IMG/VR virus record: IMGVR_UViG_3300015371_000187
Coordinates: 1-23,175 of that record
Direction: 5' to 3' (one strand)
Source: a virus
DNA length: 23,175 bases
The position numbers and the translations under genes were made by a program. How positions within the stretch are numbered: position 1 is the first letter of the stretch; every line of letters starts with the position of its first letter. Below, piece after piece: positions 2,308-21,360 of the stretch. The notes beneath the pieces were generated by a model. That model ran no database searches. It saw only the letters and a program-made list of their open reading frames with translations, and was not told the origin of the DNA.

Positions 2308-2867
2308 TATGCCGTGGTCTCCTGTGCCAAGAGGCCGAACAAATCCCAGGTATTGGCGGCGACTTTCTTCGCCGTGACGACGGCGCCGAGGATCGCGGTT
2401 GATGCCAAGAAACCGTCGGGAATATTGAGCGTCACGCCGACGCCGGCGGAAAATTCCAGCGCACCGGCGCCGCATTGGCGGAAATGGATTTCGGCGTCGA
2501 CAAGGAACGGCTCGGCCGTGTCGTTCGGGATCGTCACCGCGCAACCGGCGGCGTTGGTGCAGCGGAAATAAAAGCTCGCCTGCTCATTGGCCGGCGTCAA
2601 CGTCGTGCCGGTGACAGCAAGGGTTTGCGTCGGTCGCTGCATCGAGCGCGGCAAGGTGAAAGGCCCGAACGTGCTGGCGTCTTCCATGACGATCGTAATC
2701 GTGTCGCCGGTTTGGATGATGTTGGCGATTTGGTTCGGCTCGACCGGCGAGCCCTCCAAATCTTCAATCCGCTGCTCGTGGCCATAGAAATTTTCGTCGA
2801 CCTCGGCCGGCGTGAGGTTCGAACCTTTGCCCGCGCCCCAAGCGCCGGCGGTGCGATAAATCGTCAT
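2307..2867 (-). CDS. Tail appendage protein, fibre-anchor-like N-terminus
   Basis: A 186-residue protein from ATG 2867 with AAGGTGG as Shine-Dalgarno. Its start overlaps the preceding stop (ATGA) and its stop overlaps the next start (TAATG). The N-terminus (RTAGAWGAGKGSNLTPAEVD, followed by an N-F pair) is a pattern I recognise from many phage tail-fibre and virion surface proteins, where it probably anchors to the tail tip. Residues about 75-170 form a predicted beta-sandwich containing two Cys. No enzymatic motif is visible. It probably connects or accompanies the Ig-domain fibre encoded next. Structural role is likely; exact function unknown. Confidence 0.75.
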   Translation of the reverse strand: MTIYRTAGAWGAGKGSNLTPAEVDENFYGHEQRIEDLEGSPVEPNQIANIIQTGDTITIVMEDASTFGPFTLPRSMQRPTQTLAVTGTTLTPANEQASFYFRCTNAAGCAVTIPNDTAEPFLVDAEIHFRQCGAGALEFSAGVGVTLNIPDGFLASTAILGAVVTAKKVAANTWDLFGLLAQETTA

Positions 2868-3613
2868 GATGCCACCTTTTCGAGCAGGATGATCACGCGG
2901 CTTTCCGCGTCTGGCCGCAACTTTGTTGCGACAGGATTATATGTTTTGCCGAGATAAGTCGCGTTCACGCCATCCATCGGGAAGAAAAGCGACAGCGTCG
3001 GCAGGAAAGAGCCGGGCGTGTAAGACCGCGCGCGAAAGGTCACATCCGGCGAAAGAGCGTGATAGCAGCACATAATGGCGCCGCTTAATTCCATCAAAAA
3101 GTTAATGTCGACCGTCGAGTCGGTGTTTTCGTTGAAACGCAAATCGGTATACCCCGGCACCGGCAAATCAGGATCGGGCGGCGTCAAGGTCGATCCCGGC
3201 GACGGCAGATAAAACGGATCGTCAACGCCGCCGTCGTGACGGGTAAACGGCGAGTAAATTGTTTCCATGCTTCCCGGCAGATCCGGCATTGTCGCGCCAT
3301 AGTCGCCCCATTCGAGCGACTGCCATTCGCCGCCCTTCCAAAGCCAGGCGTTTAGAATTTTCTGCTCGTCGGTCGGGCTTTCGATCGGCACGCCCAAAGA
3401 TGAAAGATACGTTCCGTAATAGCGATGCAAGCCGCTCGACAGATTATCGTCCGGCGAAATCTCATGTTCCGGCGGCGAGCAGGAAACCGGATTGTCGAAT
3501 TCCTTTTCGCCGCGATAAGAGATTTCCAGCGCCAGGAACCGCGCACCCCATCCGACCTCTATTATTGTCCGGAAAGGGTCGAGGACTACGGGATTAGCGA
3601 CCGTGCCGGGCAT
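2864..3613 (-). CDS. Hypothetical tail-tip protein
   Basis: A 249-residue protein starting at ATG 3613, overlapping the previous stop by one base (TAATG); GAGG lies upstream. It ends in an ATGA overlap with the following fibre gene. The sequence is rich in Pro, Asp, Tyr and Trp, with a Pro-rich stretch around residues 140-155 and two adjacent Cys near residue 181. There is no signal peptide, membrane segment or recognisable catalytic motif. Its position between hub and fibre genes suggests a baseplate or tail-tip component. I do not recognise the family. Confidence 0.75.
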   Translation of the reverse strand: MPGTVANPVVLDPFRTIIEVGWGARFLALEISYRGEKEFDNPVSCSPPEHEISPDDNLSSGLHRYYGTYLSSLGVPIESPTDEQKILNAWLWKGGEWQSLEWGDYGATMPDLPGSMETIYSPFTRHDGGVDDPFYLPSPGSTLTPPDPDLPVPGYTDLRFNENTDSTVDINFLMELSGAIMCCYHALSPDVTFRARSYTPGSFLPTLSLFFPMDGVNATYLGKTYNPVATKLRPDAESRVIILLEKVAS

Positions 3614-4024: not shown

Positions 4025-5785
4025 TTACGCCGCCTCTAAATCGATGGTTTTCGGCAGCGCCAGCGCGCTAACGGTCAAGTCGTAAACCGTTTCAAACGGC
4101 CCCTTCGAGATCGGGAATAGGGTTAGATCAACCTCGGTATAGGCTTGATCGAGGGCGTTGCCGGTTTCGTCGATCGAGCCGGCAAAAGCCCCGATCAAGG
4201 CCCGCTGATCGCTTTCGCCGTTGATGACGAAAAGCGAGTCGACGATCTGCGCTTGCGTGAAATTGTCGAAATCAATGCCATCGTCATTCGGCGGCACGGC
4301 CGAATAATCGGTAACGGTGACCTCGCCGGAAACCACCGTCGACGACGCGCCGGCGTAGTATTGCCAGCCGGTCGCGACATAGCCCGTATCGACATAAGAC
4401 GGCGTGCCCGTGGCCGCCGATATTGCGTTGCCCTTGCCGATCGAGCAGCCAATGACGAAGCCGGCGACGGCCTCGCCGCTGTCGCCGTCGACCGATAGCG
4501 AATAGGAGATGATTTTTCCGATCGCCGCGCCGCCCGGCAAGCGCGCATCTTCGATGCGGATCGCCTTCCGGCAAGAGAAGGCGAGGCCGTTCGCCAGCGC
4601 CGTTTCCCCCTTGATCTCGACCGATCGCGCCCGCGCGCGAAGCCTGGCGCGCGCCACGGCGACAAGATAATCGACGGACTGTTTTCCGCGATCGGTCGGC
4701 AGATAGGCGCGGCGGCGCCGGGAAATGATCGGCAGGGCGCCGCCGGGATCGATCGGCTCGCCGACGAGATCCGACGACAGCGTGACGCTAAGCGGCTCGG
4801 TTTCGTCGGGATCACTGATAAAGGCTTGTGCGTCGGCCGTGAGGGTAAAGCGCACCAACTCGCGCCGGGATCGCGTCACGTCGTACCGCGCCGAAAGCGT
4901 CGGGATCATTTTCCAGCACGGCCATTTCGCTATAGATCCGCCCCATCCGTTAGACGACGACAGGACTTGAGTTTGAAAATCCTCCGGCACGACGAAGCCG
5001 TCGGCGCGCATGATCGAGGACGGCCCGAAAGACCAGCCGCCGCCGATATTGGCGCCAGGCGTCGGCCAATCTTCCATAAGGCCCTGGCCGGTAAATGAGG
5101 ATATGACGCCGCCCGTCGAGGTGCCGGCCGCCTGAAACGCGGCGAGCAGCGCCGGCACCAAATCGAAAACGCCGGTTGCCGCTTGTTCCCATCCGATCGC
5201 CGCTTCCACGGTGATGCGCGTCGCCGGCGCCATGCCGAAGGAAAGCTCGATGGAATCCCGGATCACGTCGTCGACAAGGTCAATCAAGCCGTCTTCGGCT
5301 TCGAGCACATCGGAGGCGGTGACGGCGTGGGTTACGCGGTCGATATGCCACAAGGCCGAGCGGCTTTCGAGCACGGCGTCGGGATCGCCGATCAATTCCG
5401 GCGTAATCCAGACGGAGTCCCAAAACGGCGCGACTTTCAGAAGGTCGGCGGCGGCGGCCTTGGCGGCGGCATAATCGACCGGGCGAGCTGCCAAGGTCAG
5501 CCGCACGGCGTTTCCGATGATCTCTTCCGGCATGGCGACCAGCCGGCCGAAAAACAGCGGTTGCCCGCCGGCCGTGTCGCCAAGGTCGATCGAGAACCAC
5601 GCCCATAATTTGCGCGCCGGATTGAGCAGGCCTTCGCGCGGATTGACGATATCAACCGTCATCGTGGCGAATTCGCCCTCGGCGTGGCTGATCTCGAAGG
5701 CGAAAACCTGCTCATCTTCGCGCAAAAACGCGTCGTCAAAGGCGGTGTCTGTCTCGTCGACCCATGCGAAATAATAGGTTGCCAA
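4025..5785 (-). CDS. Tail hub/baseplate protein (gp27-like position), TTG start
   Basis: A 586-residue protein. The start is TTG 5785, giving MATYYFAWVDE: AGAGG lies about 8 bases upstream, the preceding stop is three bases away, and the next in-frame Met is not until about residue 42. The N-terminal 120 residues look like the first beta domain of phage hub proteins (EISHAEGEFATMTVDIVNP, then a FFGRLVAMPEEI segment), which describe a quantity measured within the tail axis complex. The middle has a long Arg-rich stretch (residues about 355-395), and the last 200 residues are beta-rich. The place after the tape measure and a Dit-like gene is that of the tail hub or tail-associated tip protein. 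The hub call rests on position and N-terminal pattern. Confidence 0.7.
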   Translation of the reverse strand: MATYYFAWVDETDTAFDDAFLREDEQVFAFEISHAEGEFATMTVDIVNPREGLLNPARKLWAWFSIDLGDTAGGQPLFFGRLVAMPEEIIGNAVRLTLAARPVDYAAAKAAAADLLKVAPFWDSVWITPELIGDPDAVLESRSALWHIDRVTHAVTASDVLEAEDGLIDLVDDVIRDSIELSFGMAPATRITVEAAIGWEQAATGVFDLVPALLAAFQAAGTSTGGVISSFTGQGLMEDWPTPGANIGGGWSFGPSSIMRADGFVVPEDFQTQVLSSSNGWGGSIAKWPCWKMIPTLSARYDVTRSRRELVRFTLTADAQAFISDPDETEPLSVTLSSDLVGEPIDPGGALPIISRRRRAYLPTDRGKQSVDYLVAVARARLRARARSVEIKGETALANGLAFSCRKAIRIEDARLPGGAAIGKIISYSLSVDGDSGEAVAGFVIGCSIGKGNAISAATGTPSYVDTGYVATGWQYYAGASSTVVSGEVTVTDYSAVPPNDDGIDFDNFTQAQIVDSLFVINGESDQRALIGAFAGSIDETGNALDQAYTEVDLTLFPISKGPFETVYDLTVSALALPKTIDLEAA

Positions 5786-10665: not shown

Positions 10666-11175
10666 TTAGGTCGCATCGATAACTTCGATCGTGCCGAACG
10701 AGCCGCCGGTTTGCAGGACTTCGCCGGTCAGCTCGATTTGGCCCCATTCATCGGAGATCAGCGACAGCGAGCCCGACGGCCCGAACGAAACCGATGGAAG
10801 GGTGACGTTCACCCTATTGCCGATATCGTTCGTTCCTTGGAAGGCGATGGCGCCTTTGATTTCCGACTCGCTGAAAATCTCGAATTCGGCATTGCCGGCG
10901 GTGTTGCTTGTCGCTTCGCCAAGCAAGAGCAGGGCGAGGTTTTCGGCGGTCAATTCGTCGAGCACGATACGCAACGCGAGCGACTTTTCGAGCGTGATCG
11001 ACCTATCTTTGGTCCGGACACCCGTCCGCGACGAAAAGTGATCGAGCTTTTCGGTTGCCGGCGTGGCCTCGACCTCCGGCGCGTTGCCCAGGTCGCGTTG
11101 GCTTCCGCCGCTCGGCGTAAACTTGATGATGCCCTTGCCGATGAAGTAATTCAGGACATTGGGAGAGGTTGGCAT
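10666..11175 (-). CDS. Major tail tube protein
   Basis: A 169-residue beta-rich protein from ATG 11175, with AAAGGAG about 10 bases upstream. The N-terminus (YFIGKGIIKF) describes a 'fixed' first strand typical of tail tube proteins. It is followed by an acidic, Thr-rich loop region with EATPATEKLDHFSS and later beta segments such as VTLPSVSFGPSGSLSLI. Gene order (tail terminator, this, frameshifted chaperone, tape measure) is that of siphovirus tube genes. Six-fold rings of this protein would form the tail shaft. A strong Shine-Dalgarno and the hairpin after the gene fit a high-copy product. Confidence 0.85.
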   Translation of the reverse strand: MPTSPNVLNYFIGKGIIKFTPSGGSQRDLGNAPEVEATPATEKLDHFSSRTGVRTKDRSITLEKSLALRIVLDELTAENLALLLLGEATSNTAGNAEFEIFSESEIKGAIAFQGTNDIGNRVNVTLPSVSFGPSGSLSLISDEWGQIELTGEVLQTGGSFGTIEVIDAT

Positions 11176-11199: not shown

Positions 11200-11643
11200 T
11201 TAGACAGAACCTGGCCGCAGCACATAGCGAAACGAAAATGACAGGCCGATTTCGCCTGTCATGGTTCGACCGCGTGCCAGGCCGGACGCGGCGCCGTCAT
11301 ACCGGCCGCCCTCATTGTCTTTGGTGAGGCCGATAAGCTGCGAATCGTTGGCGACGGCGTTAATCACGCGCGCCCGATAGAGGTTGATTTGCGTGCCGAC
11401 GGTGGCCGATTTGTCGGCGAGCACGACGTAAAATTCCGGCGTCATGGTGATAATGCGCGGCGCCTTCGGCGGCCGGCCGATAGGGTCGTTATCGTCGGCC
11501 GTCTCGTCGCCGTCGAGAATGACGATCGCCGGCAGCGCGGTTTCGGGCAGATCAAGGTCATTGCGTTTCACCGTCTTGATCCCGGTGATACCACCGGCGA
11601 CCACCACAAGGCGCGCCAAAATGTCTTCGCGCAGATCGGTCAT
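11200..11643 (-). CDS. Tail terminator/tail completion protein (gpU-like position)
   Basis: A 147-residue protein starting at ATG 11643 with an ATGA overlap with the upstream gene. It begins with a helix (MTDLREDILARLVVVA), continues with an alternating strand and loop region (PAIVILDGDETADD, then MTPEFYVVLAD), and ends in beta structure (GEIGLSFSFRYVL). This order of helix, strand, long loop and closing strands, plus its place directly before the tail tube gene, fits tail terminator or tail completion proteins, which cap the tube and join it to the head. Sequence identity to a named family was not established. Confidence 0.7.
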   Translation of the reverse strand: MTDLREDILARLVVVAGGITGIKTVKRNDLDLPETALPAIVILDGDETADDNDPIGRPPKAPRIITMTPEFYVVLADKSATVGTQINLYRARVINAVANDSQLIGLTKDNEGGRYDGAASGLARGRTMTGEIGLSFSFRYVLRPGSV

Positions 11644-11984
11644 GATTGCAGCTCCAAAATCAGCACGATTTCACCGGCCGTTTCGCCCGACGGAACCGGC
11701 TTTGGATGATGGCTAACGATGCGCCAGACGTTGCCGGAAAAGGCGATCGTCGCTTCGTCGAGGCTTGCCCGCGTGAGGCCGACGCCGAGCAGATCCGACA
11801 GGCGCAGAATAGCGCCCGGCTCGACCGTGCCGATTGCCACATTGTCGCCGACCATGACGCCGCCGGTCTTGTCGATCACCGTTAGATCGGCTTCGGTCGC
11901 GTCGCTATCGTCAATTGTCAGGATCGCCGGCACGCCGAAGGCGGTGTAAAGCGGCGCAAGCAACAGATCACCGTAATCAATCAT
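11640..11984 (-). CDS. Head-tail connector/attachment protein (gpFII-like position)
   Basis: A 114-residue beta-rich protein starting at ATG 11984; the start overlaps the last codons of the glycosyltransferase gene, and its stop overlaps the next start. The sequence is acidic, with a conserved-looking N-terminal YTAFGVPAILTI segment (first strand of small phage joining proteins) and a C-terminal WRIVSHHPKPVPSGETAGEI segment, which resembles head-tail attachment proteins that report on the base of the portal ring. Its place directly upstream of the tail terminator fits a head-tail joining role. Confidence 0.65.
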   Translation of the reverse strand: MIDYGDLLLAPLYTAFGVPAILTIDDSDATEADLTVIDKTGGVMVGDNVAIGTVEPGAILRLSDLLGVGLTRASLDEATIAFSGNVWRIVSHHPKPVPSGETAGEIVLILELQS

Positions 11985-12591
11985 TCGCCGCGCTCCATTC
12001 TTCGCTTATCCAGTCGGCGCCGAGGGCGAGCGCTTCGGCCGGCTTCGGCCGCCCGTGAAAATAGACGAGCCGGCAATCGGCCGGCGGTCGAGCGATGCCC
12101 ATCATTTCCGCCTTGTACGATCGGCAAAGCCCGGCCTCATAAAGCGCCGCGTCGGGCACCTGGCGAGTGAGCCAATCTTGATCACCGTGCATTTGCCCCG
12201 TGACGCCCGGCGTGAAGTCATCCCAAACCCGCGACAAGCTGCCATCGGTCGACATGACCGACGAATTGAAGCCCGGTCGCCACCGATCTTTCAGGATCGT
12301 AAGCGGCGCGGCCCGGTGCAGACTCGTGACGTCGCCGACGACGACGCAATCGAGATCCAAGAAGAGAAACGGGATCTTGAGCGAGAAAAGCCAAACTTTC
12401 CACCACCACCCCGTTAACGTCGGCGCGACCGGCAGCAAGGGCGCCGTGATCGCGACGCCGGTCGGATCGTCGGTAAAGCACACGATATCGACCGGCTCGG
12501 CCGCATGCCGGCGGATCGACCGCGCCAGGCGGTTGACGTCGTCGGCCGTATATTTCGAACCCCATTTGAGCAGAAAAACCGGAACCGCCAT
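11977..12591 (-). CDS. GT-A-type glycosyltransferase-like protein
   Basis: A 204-residue protein if started at ATG 12591, two bases after the methyltransferase stop; an in-frame TTG at 12612 would add seven residues and is less likely. The N-terminus (PVFLLKWGSKYTADDVNRL) and TDD at 40-42 fit the nucleotide-binding half of a GT-A fold. FLDLDCVVVGD (77-87) carries the DxD motif (D79, D81) that binds metal and sugar nucleotide. HGDQDW (135-140) and YFHGRPKP (177-184) resemble acceptor and C-terminal motifs of small phage-borne transferases. No signal peptide or membrane anchor is present, so it would act in the cytoplasm. The sugar and acceptor are unknown. Last gene of the enzyme cassette. Confidence 0.75.
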   Translation of the reverse strand: MAVPVFLLKWGSKYTADDVNRLARSIRRHAAEPVDIVCFTDDPTGVAITAPLLPVAPTLTGWWWKVWLFSLKIPFLFLDLDCVVVGDVTSLHRAAPLTILKDRWRPGFNSSVMSTDGSLSRVWDDFTPGVTGQMHGDQDWLTRQVPDAALYEAGLCRSYKAEMMGIARPPADCRLVYFHGRPKPAEALALGADWISEEWSAAND

Positions 12592-12593
12592 CG

Positions 12594-13106
12594 TCAGACG
12601 TGAGTCCACCAAACATTATCGGTCGCCGTCTGGTATTCCGGCACCAAATCTTTCACGGCGGCTTTGACGGTCGGCCAATCGATATCATGGCCGGAAAGCA
12701 GGCCGCCCGGTTTCAGCTTCGGCCGCCATAGCTCGATATCGCGCCGGCAACCGGCTTCGGAATGATCGGCATCGATAAAGACGCCGCACAATGAACCGTC
12801 TTCGATCAGCGGCGCCGCTTCGCTCGTTTCCATGATCAGAATTCGCGCCCGATCGCCGTAATCCTTGGCCTTCGTCGTCACATGGGCGCGCAGGCCGTCC
12901 ATATTCCAGGCCTTGTAAGTCTCGGCGCCTGGCGCGACGTTGCCAGGCCGCTTAATCCAGGCATCAACGCCGATCATGGAAAGATCCGGGCACGTGTCGA
13001 GCAGGTGGAAAAACGTCCGGCCTTTCCACAATCCAAGCTCGGCAAAGCGCCGCATCCCGTGCTTTTTGACCATGTCGGCTAAGAAATATTCGCGGGTGAG
13101 AGACAT
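12594..13106 (-). CDS. Class I SAM-dependent methyltransferase (Methyltransf_24-like)
   Basis: A 170-residue protein from ATG 13106. The open frame extends to 13283, but that extra part overlaps the preceding gene and is Arg-rich, so the shorter start is chosen (overlap 28 bases). Motif I is FAELGLWKGRTFFHLL (21-36), motif II is IGVDAW (45-50), the post-I acidic segment is GVFIDADHSEAG (108-119), and KLKPGGLLSGHDID (130-143) is a hallmark of Methyltransf_24-type enzymes. The family uses S-adenosylmethionine, often on sugars or glycan-linked groups. The substrate is not visible here. Flanking glycosyltransferase-like genes suggest it modifies a sugar. Confidence 0.82.
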   Translation of the reverse strand: MSLTREYFLADMVKKHGMRRFAELGLWKGRTFFHLLDTCPDLSMIGVDAWIKRPGNVAPGAETYKAWNMDGLRAHVTTKAKDYGDRARILIMETSEAAPLIEDGSLCGVFIDADHSEAGCRRDIELWRPKLKPGGLLSGHDIDWPTVKAAVKDLVPEYQTATDNVWWTHV

Positions 13107-13708
13107 TCGAGGCTTTCTTCGATCGTTGCATGACGAAACGCGGTGACCGCGCTCGACCGGTTGCAATTGATGACGTCGGCGCCGATGGTTTGCGCCAGGC
13201 CGGCCAGTCTGGAAAACCGCGCCGCCCATTTCGGATATTGCAGGACACCAAACCGGCTTCGCCAGGAATAGCCCCGGTGCCAATGGCCGGCGTTGGTCAT
13301 GTCATAGCCGAGCAGGTGGATAGGCGAGGCGCCGCGAATAAGTGTCATCGCCAGCGCTGCAAAGCCGGAGTTGCCGCCGGTGAAAAGCGTATCGTCAAAG
13401 GCCGAAACGCCGCCGGCATTGACGCGCCGAAAGAGCCGCGCCCGCTCGACCGGGCAGCGATAATTGAGCGGCACGGCGGCGACGATCTCGCCGGGAAACT
13501 CGCGCAAGAGATCCGCGCGCTTTTCAAGCCAAACCGTGTCGATCGTGAAGGCGACGTCGGCGAACGGCACATATCGCACCGCGTCGTTTATCGCCACGAT
13601 GATGCCCCGCCCGCGCAGCCGCTCGAAATCGAAGTCGGTCAAGGATGGCCCGCCACCGATCAGAAAGGCCGGCCGACCGGTCCAATCTCTTTCAAGCCGC
13701 GCGAACAT
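13079..13708 (-). CDS. DUF115/GT42-like (MptE-like fold) protein, paralogue B
   Basis: A 209-residue protein from ATG 13708, overlapping the upstream paralogue by 17 bases. Signature segments: FLIGGGPSLTDFD (15-27), VAINDA (38-43), TGGNSGFAALA (110-120), HLLGYDM (131-137) and GHWHRGY (141-147). The pattern GGGPSL...N...SG...G...LLG.D...H is shared by DUF115/MptE-like proteins and the Campylobacter sialyltransferase CstII (GT42). I infer a nucleotide- or sugar-nucleotide-binding Rossmann-like fold. The actual reaction is unknown. It differs from its neighbour most in the middle (residues 60-105), the probable acceptor side. Confidence 0.72.
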   Translation of the reverse strand: MFARLERDWTGRPAFLIGGGPSLTDFDFERLRGRGIIVAINDAVRYVPFADVAFTIDTVWLEKRADLLREFPGEIVAAVPLNYRCPVERARLFRRVNAGGVSAFDDTLFTGGNSGFAALAMTLIRGASPIHLLGYDMTNAGHWHRGYSWRSRFGVLQYPKWAARFSRLAGLAQTIGADVINCNRSSAVTAFRHATIEESLECLSPANIS

Positions 13709-14324
13709 GGGCGAGCACCGTTTCGAGATCCGCGAAGGGAAAGCACTTGAGCGCCGAAGCCGGGTTGCAGTTGAAAACCTCGACGCCCTCGGCGATCAGC
13801 TCGCCGCCCATGCGTTCAAGCGCCGGGATGAAGTCGGATTGATAGCGATCCCGCGCCGGCGCCTTGTGATTGTCGTGCCAATGGCCGCCGCCCATATCGA
13901 AGCCGAGTAGGTAAATCGGATTGGCACCGAAGAGATAGGCCAGGTTCAACGCGTTCGAACCGCTACAAATGCCGGCGAGTTTGGTTGGATCGCGGGAAAG
14001 CGATGATCCCTTATCGCGCCATAGCCGGCGGATCGGCACGCCCTCGACGGTGATCAGATCGACGGCCCGCGTCACCGCATAGCGCCCGCGAAAGAGGTGA
14101 AGCCGGTCGAGGTTCCAGCCAAACCACCGTGACATTCCGTCGGCGAAATAAAGCACGTCGGCAAATGGCGCCAGGTCAAGGCCGGCGTCGTTTACCGCGA
14201 TCAGACGCCCCCGGCCGATCAGCCGGGAAGCGTCAAAGCCTTTCAGCGACGCGCCACCGCCAAGGATAAAAGCCGGCTCGCCGGCCCATTCCCTCGGCAC
14301 CTGCCACGCCGCCGGAAAACCCAT
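13692..14324 (-). CDS. DUF115/GT42-like (MptE-like fold) protein, paralogue A
   Basis: A 210-residue protein from ATG 14324, starting one base past the DUF2190-like gene stop. Segments: FILGGGASLKGFD (19-31), IAVNDA (42-47), CSGSNALNLAYLFGA (120-134), YLLGFDMGGGHWHDNH (138-153) and VFNCNPASALKCFP (183-196). These line up in order with the next gene, so the two are tandem paralogues. CstII-type sialyltransferases have comparable GNGPSL and SG...IYLSG.D motifs; DUF115 proteins also act in flagellin glycosylation. Virion or host-surface glycan modification is a reasonable inference, but no substrate can be read from sequence. Confidence 0.72.
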   Translation of the reverse strand: MGFPAAWQVPREWAGEPAFILGGGASLKGFDASRLIGRGRLIAVNDAGLDLAPFADVLYFADGMSRWFGWNLDRLHLFRGRYAVTRAVDLITVEGVPIRRLWRDKGSSLSRDPTKLAGICSGSNALNLAYLFGANPIYLLGFDMGGGHWHDNHKAPARDRYQSDFIPALERMGGELIAEGVEVFNCNPASALKCFPFADLETVLAHVRAA

Positions 14325-14325
14325 A

Positions 14326-14673
14326 TCAGAACGAGCCGTTCAGCCGGACTTTGCCGACGGCCGACGGATTGGCGGCGATCTCGACGGCGACGCCGATCAG
14401 CGTGTTACCGCTCGACGACGAAGTGACGACGCGCAGCGTATTGTTCCAATAGATTTTCTGGCCGACCGTCCAGGCCTGCGCCGAAGTCTTCGGCAGCTCC
14501 CAAACGCCTGTCGTTTCGAAAGCGCCCTCTTCGCCGGCCGGAACATCGGTGATCGCGATCCCGAAAATCGAGCCGGCGAGGAAACCGTCGCCGGATGCGA
14601 GATCGTGCGCCGGGCTTGTGTCCGGATTGAGCAGCGTCAGGCGGTCGCCTTGCTGAATAAAATTCTTGGCCAT
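14326..14673 (-). CDS. DUF2190-like capsid decoration/cement protein
   Basis: A 115-residue protein from ATG 14673 with AAAGGAC about 9 bases upstream. It shows the DUF2190 pattern: N-terminal QGDRLTLLNPD, AGSIFGIAITDVPAGEEG (residues about 33-50), GVWELPKTSAQAWTVGQKIY and a C-terminal IGVAVEIA segment. DUF2190 proteins are capsid-decorating or stabilising proteins encoded next to the major capsid gene, as here. It would sit on the outer capsid surface, which makes it a possible acceptor for the glycan enzymes encoded next. Confidence 0.82.
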   Translation of the reverse strand: MAKNFIQQGDRLTLLNPDTSPAHDLASGDGFLAGSIFGIAITDVPAGEEGAFETTGVWELPKTSAQAWTVGQKIYWNNTLRVVTSSSSGNTLIGVAVEIAANPSAVGKVRLNGSF

Positions 14674-14745: not shown

Positions 14746-16824
14746 TTAGACGCCGCTAGAGCGCAGCAGCGGACGGAAATCGAGCGCCTTCACGGCGGCA
14801 TCGATGCGCACCTTGAATTCGACGCCATCAACCTGCCATCCGTCTTGCTGCTCAAGCGTCGGGTTGGCGTTGCCGTCGAGGTACGACACTTCGATCGTGT
14901 CATACTGCGCCGGATCGGCGGCGAGATACCATTTCGCCGTCGAGTTGGCCGAAAGCCTGGCCTCCGAAATGACCTCGGCCATCGATCGAACATAGTTCGG
15001 CGCACGCGTGTTATTCGTGCCGGAGGCGGTCACCTCGAATTCGGAGGCGAGCACCTGCGCCGCCTTGCCTTCCAATTCCACCGGAACGAGAAGGAATTTC
15101 GGGCGGATATTCAAACCGCCCGGCGCGATGCTGTCAGGGTCGGTTTGCCGGGCCATCTTGGCGCGCGCCGAGTCGAGCGCGGCGGTAGTGATTGCGCCGG
15201 TCGCTTCGTTATGGTGCGCATTGTCGAAGAGCGCGACGCCGTCGGACATCAACGGGTTATCGGTCAGCACGGCATAGACGAGATTGCCGACCGTCCGGCT
15301 TGCCGCGCGGCCCATGCGCGACGGGATTTTCGAAAACACGCTCATATCATCGTTGATGATGGCTTGTCGGGTGATCGAAAACATCTTGCCGTAGGTGGCG
15401 AGCTGCGTCAGCTCGCCATGCTCGCCAATGGTTCCGTAGGTGTATTCCGCACCTTCGAGAACCACGTCGAGCGACGGGAAGAGGTTCAAGTCGACTCGCT
15501 TCGTCGGCTTGAAGTCGGTCAGCGTGCCGCGTGACGTCCAAGCGGTGTAGGTTTCCGGCGCCTCCAAATAGCCTTTCAGCATGGACTTGTTGGCGACGTT
15601 GCCGAGGATTTCGACAAAGTCGGATGTCGAATGCGTGGCGCCGGCCATGGTATAGCGGCGCATGCCAAGCGCCATTCCGGCCATATGCATGACCGAACCC
15701 ATTTCGATATCCTTCACGCCCTGATTTCGCAGATGCTGCCGGGCAAGCTCGCGAAGCGACATCGAGGAAAATTCGTTGACCTCGCCGCCTTCCAAACCGA
15801 CCTTGCGCAACAGCGCCCGTTCGGCGCCCTGCATAAACCTGTCGCGCCCGTCGGCGGTAACCGTTGCATTCGGCGACACGCGCCCGCCGCCCGGCTCATT
15901 GTCGGCGAGATGATTGATAATCATCGTCTGCGCCTTGCCGAAGTCGCCACCGGATTCCGCGACGATCTTGTTTGCAGCGGCAAGCGTCATCTTCGCCGAG
16001 GTGCAAAGCTCAAGAATGCGCATGACTGCGCCTTCGTTGCTTGCCGTCGGTGCCGGTTCGGCGGCCGGTGCCGGTGCCGGCAAAGGTGCCGCAGCGGTTA
16101 CAGGTGCCGGCGTGGTATTGTCCGCCGGGTTGGTTTTCGTGGTCATGATAATTTCCTTTCGTTTGTGCCCGGCGGAAACCGAAGCGACCATCGGCAGGCC
16201 TTGCGCCTGGCGATCCTTTGCCAGCGCGCCGAGGCCCGCCGGTGCATGCATGTATGTGCGATAATCGAATGTCGTATCGGCCTTGGCCGGTGCCGCTTCG
16301 CCCTCGATCGCGGCGGTTGCGAAGCCTTGTTTGACGGCTTCGTCAGGCCCCATCCATGTTTCAGCGCGCATCATTTCGCGCACCGCGTTCGCGTCGAGGC
16401 CGGTACGATCGGCGTAAACATTCGCGAAAATGTCGGCCATCGTGTCGAGGACATTCGCCGTGCGCCGATGTTCGTCGGCCGGCCCGAGCGTGATTCCCGA
16501 TGGTTCATGGATCATCATCAGCGTGCCGAGCGGCATCTGAATTTCGTCGCCGGCCATGGCAATGACCGACGCGGCCGAAGCGGCGATTGCGTCGATTGCA
16601 ATCGTCACCTTGCCGTCGTGGCGTTTCAGGGCGTTGTAAATCGCCGAGCCTTCCATGGCGATGCCGCCGCCCGAATTGAGCCGCACCGTAATGTCGCCTT
16701 CGAGCTGCGACAGCGCTTCAATGACGCCCTGCGAATTGAAGCCGGTATCGTCCCAAAAGTCGTAAAAGCCGACCGGCCCATAAAGCACCAATTCGCCGTT
16801 AACGATCAGCTTAGACATTGCCAT
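14746..16824 (-). CDS. ClpP-type prohead protease fused to Mu gpT-like major capsid protein
   Basis: One 692-codon frame. Start: ATG 16824 has AGGAG only 3 bases away, while ATG 16818 (two codons later) has it 9 bases away and may be used instead. Residues 1-200 are a ClpP/S49-type protease: RLNSGGG (48-54), AASAASVIAMAG (81-92) with S83 aligning with the ClpP serine, MIHEP with H106, and E155 where ClpP has its catalytic Asp. A Pro/Ala linker covers about 231-262, then a helical, scaffold-like stretch (263-310). Residues about 380-692 match Mu gpT-like major capsid proteins (TSDFVEILGNVANK, ITRQAIINDD, ALFDNAHHNEATG). The protease would mature the shell. The frame overlaps the portal gene by 14 bases. 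See the internal start at 16146. Confidence 0.9.
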   Translation of the reverse strand: MAMSKLIVNGELVLYGPVGFYDFWDDTGFNSQGVIEALSQLEGDITVRLNSGGGIAMEGSAIYNALKRHDGKVTIAIDAIAASAASVIAMAGDEIQMPLGTLMMIHEPSGITLGPADEHRRTANVLDTMADIFANVYADRTGLDANAVREMMRAETWMGPDEAVKQGFATAAIEGEAAPAKADTTFDYRTYMHAPAGLGALAKDRQAQGLPMVASVSAGHKRKEIIMTTKTNPADNTTPAPVTAAAPLPAPAPAAEPAPTASNEGAVMRILELCTSAKMTLAAANKIVAESGGDFGKAQTMIINHLADNEPGGGRVSPNATVTADGRDRFMQGAERALLRKVGLEGGEVNEFSSMSLRELARQHLRNQGVKDIEMGSVMHMAGMALGMRRYTMAGATHSTSDFVEILGNVANKSMLKGYLEAPETYTAWTSRGTLTDFKPTKRVDLNLFPSLDVVLEGAEYTYGTIGEHGELTQLATYGKMFSITRQAIINDDMSVFSKIPSRMGRAASRTVGNLVYAVLTDNPLMSDGVALFDNAHHNEATGAITTAALDSARAKMARQTDPDSIAPGGLNIRPKFLLVPVELEGKAAQVLASEFEVTASGTNNTRAPNYVRSMAEVISEARLSANSTAKWYLAADPAQYDTIEVSYLDGNANPTLEQQDGWQVDGVEFKVRIDAAVKALDFRPLLRSSGV
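16144..16161 (-). promoter_or_regulatory. Internal Shine-Dalgarno and in-frame ATG at the protease-capsid junction
   Basis: On the minus strand, GAAAGGAAATTATC stands directly before an in-frame ATG (16146-16144), which is codon 227 of the fusion. The AAGGA core with about 7 bases spacing is close to ideal. Initiation here would give a separate 466-residue capsid precursor (16146-14746, beginning MTTKTNPADN) lacking the protease. It lies exactly at the domain boundary, so it may be the capsid gene's original start, still active. Confidence 0.65.
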
Positions 16825-18355
16825 TATCTCCTGTCTGTTGTGATGGATCGCCGCCGCCGGCGCTGCCGTCTTCCGTGGGCAACGTCACGGCGTTGCCGAC
16901 GCTCGTCACGCGACGCGGATCGCTGTCAAAGACGAGCCCGAGCTTGTCGGCGCGCGCGTTCGACTCGGCGATTTCGGCGTCGAGATCGGCCGGATCGTGC
17001 CCGAGCTTGCGCTGTTCATTCGGCCGCGACGAAAGACCGGTGCGGATCGCGTCGCGCGCCGCCCTGGTTTCCTCGGCCGGGTTGATCATTTCGCGCGGTG
17101 AAGGCGTCCAGCGGATTGTTGCTTTCGGCGCCCGGCCCGTCATCAGCAAGACGGCGTCGAGAAACCACCGGCCGAGCGGGTGGCAAAGCTGTGGCAAAAG
17201 CATGTGCTCTTGCGTCGTGCCGATTGTCCGCTGAAACTCAAGCCAGCCCATGCGGCCGGACGAAAAGTTGACGCCTTTCAGATCGCCCGAAAGCGCCTCG
17301 TAAGACATGCCAAGGCCGACGGCGATCTCTTGCAACTCTGCCCGCTTGTATGCGTCGTATTCGCCGACCGACGGCGGCGTGCCGAAGGTCACATCTTCGC
17401 CAGGACGAAGCCGCTGGATAAGGCCGGGCTGCAATTCCTCGACCGAATAGGGCTGGCCGGACTCGGCTTGCTTGATCGCATCGCCACCGCCGCTAACGTC
17501 GTCGTCGGCGGTGACGAAGGCGGCAAAGCAGGCGGCGACTTTCTGGCGAACGAGCTGCGCGTCGGAATAGTCGGCGAGATCGCGCATTTTCAGGATGACC
17601 GGCGCGAACCATGTCACGCCGCGAACCTGGCCTGGCCGATCGATGCGGTAAACGTGCGCCACATCTTCGGCCGGAATGAACCGGCTTTCATAGTTCGTCT
17701 GCCGCGTGGCATACGATCCGGGATGCTCGGTAAAGAGCCAATAGCCGGAACGCCGGCCGATCGGATCATATTCCACGCCTTGAACGATCTGGCCGCCGTT
17801 CGGCAACGGCCCATCTTTGTTCGTGTCGAAATAATCGGGCTCAAGAACTTCGAGCTGAAAGGGCAGGGGATAGCCATCCTCGACCCGCCGGCGCCGGCGC
17901 CGCACAAGGCATTCGCCGCTTTCGGCAACGGTCGCCATGATCAGCCCTTGCAGGCCGTAAAGGTTCATTTGCCCGTTGACGTCGCAAGCCGGCGTGTCGA
18001 AATGCGCCTTGATCAGCGCTTCGAGGGCAGTCCGTTCGGATTTGCTCGTCGAAACGACCGACGGAAAAATGCCAGGCCCGACGACATTGTTTTTCAGAAC
18101 GGACTTGCGGCGCGCCGCATAGGGATTGTTGCGCACCATGTCGCGCGCGACGTCGCGCAGCCGGCCGAGCGCCGGCAGGTTTTCGGCGTTGGCATCGGTC
18201 GAGGTGACGCGCCAGCCCTGCGCGCGCCGGCCTTTGGTCGCGCCGTCGTATGCCATGCGCGCAGCGGCCAGGGCGGCGGCACGGTTGCGCGCCTGCTCGC
18301 GTTTCAGCGCCCGCGCCGGAGCGACGGCGGCAATCATCCTATCAATGAAATTCAT
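16811..18355 (-). CDS. Portal protein, lambda gpB family
   Basis: A 514-residue protein from ATG 18355, three bases after the gpW-like stop; its end overlaps the capsid fusion gene. Lambda-type portal features: N-terminal helical Arg-rich region with AARMAYDGA, the ARDMVRNNPYAARRKSVLKN segment (about 69-88), NVVGPGIFP (about 89-97), GLQGLIMATVAESGECLV (about 133-150) and VLEPDYFDT (about 169-177), with a polar C-terminus. Length compares with lambda gpB (533 aa). Twelve copies would form the DNA entry channel and dock the terminase. Family assignment is by these motifs and by position between gpW-like and capsid genes. Confidence 0.93.
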   Translation of the reverse strand: MNFIDRMIAAVAPARALKREQARNRAAALAAARMAYDGATKGRRAQGWRVTSTDANAENLPALGRLRDVARDMVRNNPYAARRKSVLKNNVVGPGIFPSVVSTSKSERTALEALIKAHFDTPACDVNGQMNLYGLQGLIMATVAESGECLVRRRRRRVEDGYPLPFQLEVLEPDYFDTNKDGPLPNGGQIVQGVEYDPIGRRSGYWLFTEHPGSYATRQTNYESRFIPAEDVAHVYRIDRPGQVRGVTWFAPVILKMRDLADYSDAQLVRQKVAACFAAFVTADDDVSGGGDAIKQAESGQPYSVEELQPGLIQRLRPGEDVTFGTPPSVGEYDAYKRAELQEIAVGLGMSYEALSGDLKGVNFSSGRMGWLEFQRTIGTTQEHMLLPQLCHPLGRWFLDAVLLMTGRAPKATIRWTPSPREMINPAEETRAARDAIRTGLSSRPNEQRKLGHDPADLDAEIAESNARADKLGLVFDSDPRRVTSVGNAVTLPTEDGSAGGGDPSQQTGDNGNV

Positions 18356-18563: not shown

Positions 18564-20729
18564 TCACCTTGAAAACCAATTGCCGCCAGGGCGGTTAATC
18601 CATGTTCGCTTCGCCGGCGGCGTTTGCCTGGTCGGCTTCGGCGGTGTTGCTGCCGCTTCCGGCTTTGCCGGCTTCGGCGTCTTCATGCGTCGCTTTGCCG
18701 GCGCCGCCCCGATCTCGATCGGCACCGCATAGGAGTTTTCCGGCCCGGCCAGCGCCCACGCCGGCGGCCTTTCCCAATTGATGCGCTCGGCTTTAAGCAC
18801 GATCGCCAACGCCTTGCCGTAAACCGCCAAGTCGAGCGCTTCGTTTCGAAGGCCGCTTTTGACTTCGCGCCAACCGAAATCGGTTCGCGCTTCGGCGCAG
18901 AATTCCGCAAAGACCGTATCGGCGAGCTGATCGGGCAGATGATATTTGCCCGGCCCCGAGTCCTTGCGCGTCAAAGCCATAATCACTTCGTCTTTGAGCG
19001 GATCGGTGCCGGCCTCGACGATCATCAGATCCGACTTGCGCCGTTTCTTGGTGCCCTGCACCTTCTCCGGCGTTTTATAAACGGCGCGTTCGCGATCGGT
19101 GCCGCCTCGGCCGCGCACCACAAAGCAGCGGCTCGCATTGCCGGCGCGGCGATGGTGGCGCCACCAGTGATAAGCGTGGTCTGTCGTGCCCTTGGCGCCG
19201 TGCAAGTCGACGACGATCGCGCGCGGCAAGAGGCCGTAACCGGTGCCGGTCACCGGATAGGCGACATCGAGCAGCGCCGACAGCACCGCCCAATCTTCAT
19301 AATATCGCGGCGGATCAATCGACCGCGTCGAGGCGTTCGGCGCATCGGCCGGCGGCGTATGGATATCGAAGCGATCGATAAGCCAGCGCTCAAGACCTGG
19401 CGCCCATGCGTCGACCTGTACGACGAAGCGGTTAGGTTGCACGTCGACTTGCACCGTCACAAATCGGGCATCGGCCGGCGCGACGCGCAGCGGATAGGCA
19501 TCCGATAGCGCTTTCAGCGTCTCCGGCTGAAGTTGCTCGCCGAGCGTGCGGATTTGCGGCAGGTATGGCCGGCCCTGGTCAATATTCGTGGTCGCCTTTA
19601 AGGCGCCTTCGTCGCCGGTGTCTTCGAATTGCAAGCGGCCTTGTTCGGCGCGCAAGATCAATTGTTCCCAGCTTTGCAGCGCCGCGACCGGCCCTTCGAG
19701 CCAATACGAAACAACGTCGGTATCGCGCACCGCGTCGTCATCGATCGGCACCAAGCTTTGCCCGTCGTTCGTTTCGTGCAACCAAAGGCCGGAGCAATTC
19801 AGTTCATACTTGCGATCCGGTCCGATGATGCAGCCGTTCGGGCAAACCATGGTGACGGTCTTTGCCGTCTCGCCCGGCGTCGATTTCCGCTCATAGTGCA
19901 GCCGTTCCATCAACGGCCGGAAAGGGTCGCGGCAATGCGGACACGTCCAATAAAACCCGCCGCGCGTGCCGGCGTTATATTCGGCCAGGATGCCGGAGCA
20001 TGGCGGCGCCTCATGAAGCGTCGTCGCTTCCCAATCGTCGCGCTCGATCACGCGGCCAGGCGAGGACTCGCAAACGACCATGGCTTGCGATCCGGCGTGT
20101 TGCGTGCGCTTGCGGGCAAGGAAGAAAGCCGAGCCTTCGCCGTCGACGTCGTCGGGCATACGGTCATAGTCCGTAAGCAGCACGTCGAAATATTCGTTTT
20201 GCGAAAAGTATCCGATCACCGGCCAGCGGATTTGCAAATTCATCCCGGCCGAAAACTTCTTTTCGTGGATGTTATCGGAGCCGCGCCCGGTCATCTGTCG
20301 AGCGCGAAGCGTCCGGCTTGCCCGCAACATCGGCGATAGCTTGCGTTCCGAAAACTGCTTTGCAACATCTTGCGTCGAGCAGACGACCAGCATGTCGCGC
20401 GGGTTACACTCGATACGATGGCCGATCGTGTTCAAGATCAACGGTTCGGTTTTCGAGGTACGCGCCGGCCCGACGAAGACGACGGCGCCGTAACGCCTCG
20501 ACGTCGTCATGCGTGACGGCTCGACCATGTACGCCGCGAAGTCATTGCGCCAAGGTCCGGAAAAACCGGGCGAGGCGATCACCCGCGATTTTTCCGCCCA
20601 GGTCGGCACGTCGATTCGCCGCGCCGGTTCCAAGACCGTAAGCGCCGCGCCGGCCGCCTCGAAGGGATCGGCGAAAGTCGGCGGCGGCACCGGCGGCAAA
20701 AACCGCTCCCATGCGCTGCGATCAGGCAT
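18564..20729 (-). CDS. Terminase large subunit, lambda gpA family
   Basis: A 721-residue protein from ATG 20729, overlapping the small-subunit stop by 8 bases. The ATPase P-loop is atypical but family-like: VVFVGPARTSKTE (83-95), with K93 and T94. The Walker B region is FDVLLTDYDRM (181-191). CPHC (263-266) with CPNGC (296-300) makes the zinc-ribbon seen in gpA-type proteins. The C-terminal half (from about residue 405) begins with VTVQVDVQPNRFVVQV, the first strand and Asp of the nuclease domain. The C-terminal end is Lys/Pro-rich. It cuts concatemeric DNA, probably at cos, and pumps it through the portal. Slightly longer than lambda gpA (641 aa). Confidence 0.95.
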   Translation of the reverse strand: MPDRSAWERFLPPVPPPTFADPFEAAGAALTVLEPARRIDVPTWAEKSRVIASPGFSGPWRNDFAAYMVEPSRMTTSRRYGAVVFVGPARTSKTEPLILNTIGHRIECNPRDMLVVCSTQDVAKQFSERKLSPMLRASRTLRARQMTGRGSDNIHEKKFSAGMNLQIRWPVIGYFSQNEYFDVLLTDYDRMPDDVDGEGSAFFLARKRTQHAGSQAMVVCESSPGRVIERDDWEATTLHEAPPCSGILAEYNAGTRGGFYWTCPHCRDPFRPLMERLHYERKSTPGETAKTVTMVCPNGCIIGPDRKYELNCSGLWLHETNDGQSLVPIDDDAVRDTDVVSYWLEGPVAALQSWEQLILRAEQGRLQFEDTGDEGALKATTNIDQGRPYLPQIRTLGEQLQPETLKALSDAYPLRVAPADARFVTVQVDVQPNRFVVQVDAWAPGLERWLIDRFDIHTPPADAPNASTRSIDPPRYYEDWAVLSALLDVAYPVTGTGYGLLPRAIVVDLHGAKGTTDHAYHWWRHHRRAGNASRCFVVRGRGGTDRERAVYKTPEKVQGTKKRRKSDLMIVEAGTDPLKDEVIMALTRKDSGPGKYHLPDQLADTVFAEFCAEARTDFGWREVKSGLRNEALDLAVYGKALAIVLKAERINWERPPAWALAGPENSYAVPIEIGAAPAKRRMKTPKPAKPEAAATPPKPTRQTPPAKRTWINRPGGNWFSR

Positions 20730-21360
20730 CGAGTGAATCCCGCGAACCGCTGGCGATCGGATGATCGAGCCAAAATCTTTCGATGGCGCCGCGCGTGCCG
20801 GCGACGATCTCGTCGCAAATGTCGATCAGCGCATTGACGATATTCGGTTGCAACGCGTGGCGCCGTTCGATCACATCCGGCGCCGCGTTCAAGCTGTCGC
20901 GGATGATCGCGAAGATGATCTCGAAGGCCTCTTGCACGTCTTCGCGGCGCATCAATTCGTTGCGTTCCTGGCGAAACCGCTCTTGCTCGATCTGCGCCGC
21001 CATGATTTCGCGGCGCGTCTTAGGGTCGAGCGCTTCGATCGTGTCGGCATCGCCGCCGACCACCGCGACCCGCATCGCCGCCTTGGCCAGCCGCACCTTT
21101 TCCGACTGCAAAGCCTCGTCGGCTTTCTGCGCCTGGCGCCACGCCCAGCAATGCGACAGTTGCAATTCATAGGGTTTGCCCTGGCCGCCCTCTTGGATGA
21201 CCGGCATTCCCTTCGCAATCCATGCCGTGACCGTGTTCGGCATGACCTGAAAGGCTTCGGCCAGGTCGTCGCGTGACATGACGCAATCGGCAGTGTCGGC
21301 CGGCAGCGGATACCGCTTGCACAATTTGGCAATCTCGGCGGCGCTAAGTTTGTTTGTCAT
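20722..21360 (-). CDS. Terminase small subunit (Nu1-like)
   Basis: A 212-residue protein from ATG 21360, the only start in the frame after a stop about 30 bases upstream; there is no clear Shine-Dalgarno. Residues about 26-76 form a winged helix-turn-helix (MSRDDLAEAFQVMPNTVTAW, then a Lys-Gly-Met-Pro turn), the DNA-recognition domain of Nu1-type subunits. The rest is helical, acidic and Arg-rich, with a C-terminal helical section that probably contacts the large subunit. It recognises the packaging site. Coupled to the large subunit gene by an 8-base overlap. Lambda Nu1 has 181 aa. Confidence 0.88.
   Translation of the reverse strand: MTNKLSAAEIAKLCKRYPLPADTADCVMSRDDLAEAFQVMPNTVTAWIAKGMPVIQEGGQGKPYELQLSHCWAWRQAQKADEALQSEKVRLAKAAMRVAVVGGDADTIEALDPKTRREIMAAQIEQERFRQERNELMRREDVQEAFEIIFAIIRDSLNAAPDVIERRHALQPNIVNALIDICDEIVAGTRGAIERFWLDHPIASGSRDSLDA

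Follow-up and report, generated by a model that had tools for sequence, protein, structure and literature searches.

The window analyzed here is the 23,175-nucleotide stretch of IMG/VR record IMGVR_UViG_3300015371_000187, a 23-kb piece of an uncultured tailed phage that carries, on the minus strand and co-oriented with the virion genes, a cassette of four genes: (i) DA and (ii) DB, both of the DUF115 type, (iii) MT, an S-adenosylmethionine (SAM)-dependent methyltransferase, and (iv) GT, a GT8-type glycosyltransferase. The four genes probably form a late-expressed glycan cassette that places a methyl-capped glycan on a virion protein. The arrangement DUF115-DUF115-(decorator)-GT8 is argued to be a recurrent phage module that would serve one pathway, based on its recurrent order, the linkage of DUF115 to GT and the occurrence of fusion proteins.

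DA is identified as a Maf/GT42-like glycosyltransferase that may use a cytidine monophosphate (CMP)-nonulosonate donor. Both DA and DB match phrog_4603 'alpha-2,3-sialyltransferase' (106 and 103 bits, respectively), while their scores to PF01973 (MptE-like, formerly DUF115/Maf_flag10) are 16.3 bits for DA and 21.4 bits for DB, below the Pfam gathering score of 34.6; thus, DA is named Maf/GT42-like and not a Pfam member. Single-sequence searches of DA and of MT against solved structures gave nothing useful. A profile built from 16 DUF115 proteins of phages retrieves the Maf glycosyltransferase 5MU5 first (2e-4) and GT42 sialyltransferases next (3e-3), and the GxGPSL, NSG and GxD motifs of the phage profile align with those of these matches. 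Structure models (AlphaFold) cover DA and GT. The model of DA (predicted local distance difference test, pLDDT, 89.3; predicted template modelling score, pTM, 0.90) finds its best solved fold in the Maf flagellin glycosyltransferase 5MU5 (Z 16.2, root-mean-square deviation 3.5 Å, 196 residues aligned), with lesser matches to archaeal HPPK (Z 11.7) and CstII (Z 11.1). Maf (motility accessory factor) enzymes O-glycosylate the Ser/Thr residues of flagellin with nonulosonic acids, and their central domain, Maf_flag10 (PF01973), resembles CstII (PMC11339370). While DA shares the catalytic-domain fold and the three motifs with Maf, it is a single small domain that is missing the N- and C-terminal domains of Maf, and flagellin is not an evident target.

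DB keeps the near-invariant columns of the DUF115 family in alignment and is a second, anciently diverged DUF115 protein, not a recent duplicate of DA. A recent tandem duplication was considered, and the sister grouping of DA and DB that it implies is rejected by the approximately unbiased test (p-AU 0.0004). DA groups with the first DUF115 copy of the Xanthomonas jumbo phage XacN1 (support 98/96). The second DUF115 proteins of XacN1, RAS14, P1, phiNP and seven contigs cluster in a single clade (99/98), separate from the first copies. The free tree places DB beside the DUF115 fusion protein of contig L089 (98/72), and a position of DB within the PmgP/XacN1 'b' clade is not rejected (p-AU 0.115).

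GT is of the GT8 type (glycogenin/LgtC-like) and is predicted to catalyze retaining transfer from a uridine diphosphate (UDP)-sugar. The protein matches the glycosyltransferase family phrog_1962 (84 bits), and its profile matches are to UDP-galactose:glucoside-Skp1 galactosyltransferase (4.5e-9) and also glycogenin. The AlphaFold model (pLDDT 88.6) has the GT8 fold, with glycogenin (Z 16.9), the Skp1 galactosyltransferase (Z 16.6) and LgtC (Z 16.3) as matches. GT shares with these enzymes, at an identity of 15-18%, the fold, the DxD motif (DLD in GT) and a C-terminal HGxxKP motif (HGRPKP in GT, of the form HGxPKP). MT scores 56.4 bits to Methyltransf_24 (PF13578), compared to a cut-off of 26.3, and occupies the slot of a TylF/Methyltransf_24 domain that is fused to the glycosyltransferase in XacN1. 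This TylF-like domain points indirectly to a sugar hydroxyl as the group that MT may methylate. NCBIfam provides no usable match for DA, DB, MT or GT. The initial annotation of this DNA had proposed linked glycan and methyl enzymes, with the DUF115 and DxD proteins as glycosyltransferases, and is supported in this by the profile searches and by the DA and GT models.

The four genes are real and under purifying selection, and chance open reading frames are excluded. Compared to the sister contig L001, the ratios of nonsynonymous to synonymous substitution (dN/dS) are 0.12 for DA, 0.27 for DB, 0.03 for MT and 0.27 for GT, close to the range of 0.06-0.20 of the flanking virion genes, and on this basis the cassette genes are not chance frames. 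The overlapping block between the decoration gene and the connector, as first described, is confirmed with small corrections of start codons: MT starts at the ATG at 13106, and GT at the ATG at 12591, which lies at the conserved N-terminus and makes the TTG at 12612 unnecessary. DA and DB overlap by 17 nt, DB and MT by 28 nt, and GT and the next gene by 8 nt, while the TGA stop of MT is 2 nt before the ATG of GT. Promoter-like sites inside the cassette show no excess over shuffled sequence.

The order DUF115a-DUF115b-(decorating enzyme)-PmgQ-like GT is found in the window, L001, XacN1, RAS14, P1, L069, L094, L099 and L184, and the order DUF115-DUF115-GT without a middle gene in phiNP, L070 and L101. 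A scan of IMG/VR with the GT profile alone, followed by removal of near-duplicates, yields 29 contigs that are not fully phylogenetically independent. A DUF115 gene is located within 3 kb of GT in 22 of these, and the DUF115 matches number 29 within 3 kb of GT (178 kb) compared to one beyond (121 kb), while none of 14 contigs with another GT subfamily has DUF115. The counts are of profile matches to stop-to-stop frames; simple gene calling was perturbed by long antisense open reading frames in DNA of high GC content. A scan with the DUF115 profile gave almost only P1-like contigs and is excluded from the statistics, and a genome-contig search with the DA-group profile retrieved no relative. 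GT and DUF115 are fused in one protein in L089 and L102 (in L089, each half matches its own PHROG family), and methyltransferase and GT are fused in XacN1 and RAS14. The linkage of all four genes, which the initial annotation had suggested surveying among relatives, is broken in the related contig L002, which keeps DA with an unrelated methyltransferase and has no DB and no GT; the four genes thus need not occur as a complete set, although the DUF115-GT linkage is strong.

The slot between or beside DUF115 and GT is occupied by (i) FkbM-type methyltransferases in L076, L078, L084, L086 and L102, (ii) TylF/Methyltransf_24 enzymes in XacN1 and the window, (iii) Methyltransf_11/12-type enzymes in L002 and L099, (iv) a sulfotransferase in L104 (phrog_3347 in L081), and (v) a phosphatase in P1. 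Exchangeable transferases of small groups beside a conserved pair of sugar enzymes suggest varied decoration of a shared product, which is best read as a glycan.

Among named phages, XacN1 (ORF375-ORF374-ORF373) matches the window in all four activities and in their order; it differs in that ORF373 fuses a TylF/Methyltransf_24 domain to a PmgQ-like GT and in that the genes adjoin ribonucleotide reductase. ORF373-375 are annotated as 'hypothetical' in the deposited record. Stenotrophomonas phage RAS14 is arranged as XacN1, including the methyltransferase-GT fusion. Compared to XacN1, its first DUF115 gene (L021:3969-4656) is broken into two frames, by a frameshift or a sequencing error. The pmgO-pmgP-ppp-pmgQ genes of P1 share the DUF115-DUF115-X-GT order, and PmgQ shares 28% identity with GT across 95% of the latter; by contrast to the window, the protein-phosphatase gene ppp stands in place of the methyltransferase, and the genes are called 'putative morphogenetic'. 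Pseudomonas phages D3 (orf7, orf12-13) and PAJU2 (ORF010-012) have DUF115 and methyltransferase genes in the corresponding position of the capsid-connector region, but with one DUF115, another methyltransferase and no PmgQ-like GT found there. The deposited record gives the PAJU2 DUF115 protein ORF010 (L196:881-1450) the label 'structural protein'.

Capsid, portal, adaptor, head-closure, neck or similar genes lie within about 4 kb in 17 of the 22 linked contigs, as counted manually with gene identities confirmed for representatives. The cassette is often exactly between the capsid gene and the adaptor Ad1, and the carriers near head genes have several unrelated capsid types. The premise of the initial annotation, a stretch normally reserved for virion joining proteins, is not borne out, as DUF115, GT or methyltransferase genes recur in the same head-connector stretch in D3, PAJU2, S20 and many IMG/VR contigs; the use of position as a clue nonetheless gains support from the 17 contigs. 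In Caulobacter phage CcrColossus (L188:4989-9542), DUF115, nucleotide-sugar transferase, methyltransferase and family-9 GT genes directly follow a large tail gene.

A virion protein is favoured as the acceptor based on the position in the head module, the protein-modifying nearest folds and the reported virion glycoproteins of XacN1. The nearest modelled folds (Maf, glycogenin and Skp1 galactosyltransferase) are modifiers of cytoplasmic proteins. The slot in the late structural module likewise favours virion proteins, which are abundant cytoplasmic substrates at that time. XacN1 virions are reported to have at least two glycoproteins, which the authors credit to ORF328 and ORF334, with the cassette copy not recognised (PMC5852040). 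None of pmgO, pmgP, ppp and pmgQ is needed by P1 to form plaques (PMC10695390), which fits a role in decoration and excludes an essential assembly role in that phage. In the proposed mechanism, GT would transfer a hexose from a UDP-sugar, DA and DB would add further residues from sugars activated by CMP or another nucleotide (perhaps nonulosonic acids) that are probably supplied by the host, and MT would cap a sugar hydroxyl with methyl. The glycan would most likely be attached to a Ser, Thr or Tyr residue in a virion protein while that protein is still in the cytoplasm, ahead of assembly or as assembly proceeds, and the outcome would be a methyl-capped glycan coat that may alter the adsorption, shielding or stability of the particles. 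Chlorovirus PBCV-1 provides a mechanistic parallel by analogy, in which the GT, GT and methyltransferase domains of A064R build and 2-O-methylate the major capsid protein glycan in the cytoplasm (PMC7019647), although the host there is eukaryotic and the product an N-glycan. Phage-encoded glycans on capsid and tail-tube subunits are described for mycobacteriophages (Freeman 2023, as cited in PMC12619734), while mycobacteriophages are absent among the matches listed in the sequence searches.

Several observations weigh against virion glycosylation by this cassette: the units of XacN1 and P1 lie outside the head module and the CcrColossus DUF115 gene follows a tail gene, such that the head position of the DUF115-GT unit is common, not universal; XacN1 carries ORF328 and ORF334 as other glycosyltransferases; the GT8 and GT42 families include lipooligosaccharide (LOS) enzymes (LgtC, Z 16.3; CstII, Z 11.1); and the CMP-sugar synthetase PF02348 is found in none of 26 carrier records, many of which are fragments. 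A phage-made CMP-sugar donor is rejected by the latter count, and the donor would thus come from the host. The DUF2190 cement protein encoded next to the cassette, which the initial annotation had put forward as acceptor, is not supported as a general acceptor, with PF09956 present in two of 31 cassette-bearing records, both close relatives, and with capsid types that differ.

Alternatively, the cassette could alter a host surface glycan (the sugar of lipopolysaccharide, LOS, capsule or flagellin) on the cytoplasmic face late in infection or during lysogeny, and so change adsorption or exclude competitors. This is unlikely, although LgtC and CstII are LOS enzymes and the Z score of LgtC ties with those of the protein-modifying folds; D3, PAJU2 and P1 are temperate; solitary PmgQ-like GTs adjoin tail-fibre genes (Chlobot); and phage DSL-LC06 has heptosyltransferase-like and KpsC-like genes near its GT. 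Against these stand the repeated placement of the cassette inside the late head-connector module, a block that has no membrane-anchor, flippase or polymerase gene, and the little time that late surface editing leaves for an effect. The lack of signal peptides, earlier taken as a clue to the acceptor, fails to separate virion from host-surface targets, since the cytoplasmic side is also where LOS enzymes, LgtC and CstII among them, act.

It is very improbable that DA and DB act on small molecules, as MptE-like pterin pyrophosphokinases or otherwise, among neighbours that are unrelated morons in one permissive site. While PF01973 has the Pfam name MptE-like and DA matches the archaeal HPPK fold, the Maf fold is clearly nearer (Z 16.2 compared to 11.7); and while L002 and D3 carry part of the set and head-tail modules are known moron sites, the recurrent order, DUF115-GT linkage and fusions fit one pathway, and DUF115 and GT also stay paired where they lie outside head modules. 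Modification of nucleic acid, either as DNA hypermodification or as anti-restriction at packaging, is very improbable. Glycosyltransferases that hypermodify DNA are known in phages (Pyle 2024, as cited in PMC12619734), and the cassette is near packaging genes. The PHROG match of MT is to a 'DNA methyltransferase' family, a label that is rejected here as the match spans one domain of a 599-position multidomain profile and Pfam gives Methyltransf_24. The XacN1 counterpart matches TylF, a sugar O-methyltransferase family, a sulfotransferase is found in the same slot, and no base-modifying gene is seen in the window. P1 DNA is not known to be hypermodified, which also argues against this alternative.

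The cassette belongs with the phage-encoded glycan cassettes, with a role in virion glycosylation favoured. Each family is already known and annotated, and genes of the same kinds are annotated in P1, D3 and XacN1; thus, the 'undescribed system' of the initial annotation stands at the level of the unit and not of its genes, in that none of the open-licence papers searched treats DUF115-DUF115-(decorator)-GT8 as one module or assigns it a function. A broader claim is more tentative: a widespread unnamed module of siphoviruses, P1-like and jumbo phages might use host nucleotide-sugars to build a short glycan with interchangeable caps (methyl, sulfate or phosphate-related) on capsid or connector proteins. 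Such a module would be the phage counterpart of PBCV-1 capsid glycosylation and would explain the orphan pmgO-pmgP-ppp-pmgQ genes of P1. Few phages have been shown to glycosylate their virions, and in those cases the modification affects how the particle is recognised. If the module glycosylates virions, the trait would be common, the P1 orphan genes and the 'sialyltransferase' genes of phage head modules would gain a function, and the module would be a source of soluble protein glycosyltransferases with exchangeable caps. P1 is a model phage in which the question is directly testable.

The minus-strand order of the window is terminase genes, portal, ClpP-major capsid protein fusion, DUF2190 cement, DA, DB, MT, GT, two unmatched small genes, major tail protein and tape measure. 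The two small genes have no Pfam or PHROG family match, and their designation as head-tail connector is a candidate assignment based on where they lie and on their conservation in L001, L002, L081 and L089.

Coordinates and supporting evidence for the cassette and neighbouring genes of the window
Feature	Position	Strand	Evidence
Terminase genes	20722-21360, 18564-20729	-	
Portal protein	16811-18355	-	PF05136 359 bits
ClpP-type prohead protease fused to major capsid protein	14746-16824	-	PF00574 + PF25209 (Pfam), phrog_133
Cement/decoration protein, DUF2190 (Phage_cement_2)	14326-14673	-	PF09956 105 bits; phrog_122 head decoration
DA, Maf/GT42-like (DUF115, phrog_4603) glycosyltransferase, 210 aa	13692-14324	-	phrog_4603, AlphaFold fold, dN/dS
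DB, second DUF115-type protein, 209 aa	13079-13708	-	phrog_4603 103 bits; near-invariant columns of family kept
MT, class I SAM methyltransferase, Methyltransf_24, 170 aa	12594-13106	-	PF13578 56.4 bits
GT, GT8-type glycosyltransferase (phrog_1962, PmgQ-like), DLD + HGxPKP motifs, 204 aa	11977-12591	-	phrog_1962 84 bits
Joining-protein candidate	11640-11984	-	Position; conserved in L001, L002, L081, L089
Joining/terminator candidate	11200-11643	-	Position; conserved in L001, L002, L081, L089
Major tail protein	10666-11175	-	phrog_807 127 bits

Three large tail-end proteins without a PHROG match are encoded on the minus strand of the window at 706-2544, 2864-3613 and 4025-5785. Beyond the window, several IMG/VR contigs (L005, L007-L017) carry four GT paralogues in tandem that belong to a different branch of the GT family and are not accompanied by DUF115, and a 1258-aa protein with two GT8-like domains is encoded upstream of portal and protease-capsid genes (L097:2232-6005). 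An unusually large glycan set is present in the 30-kb sequence of phage DSL-LC06 (L193:1732-9017), including a methyltransferase, a heptosyltransferase-like protein, FkbM, two GTs, a KpsC-like protein and a sialyltransferase. The family phrog_2518 (326-332 aa), which has a function-less label, recurs inside DUF115-GT cassettes (L089:6012-6989 and L187:8335-9330) and is possibly a further glycan enzyme.

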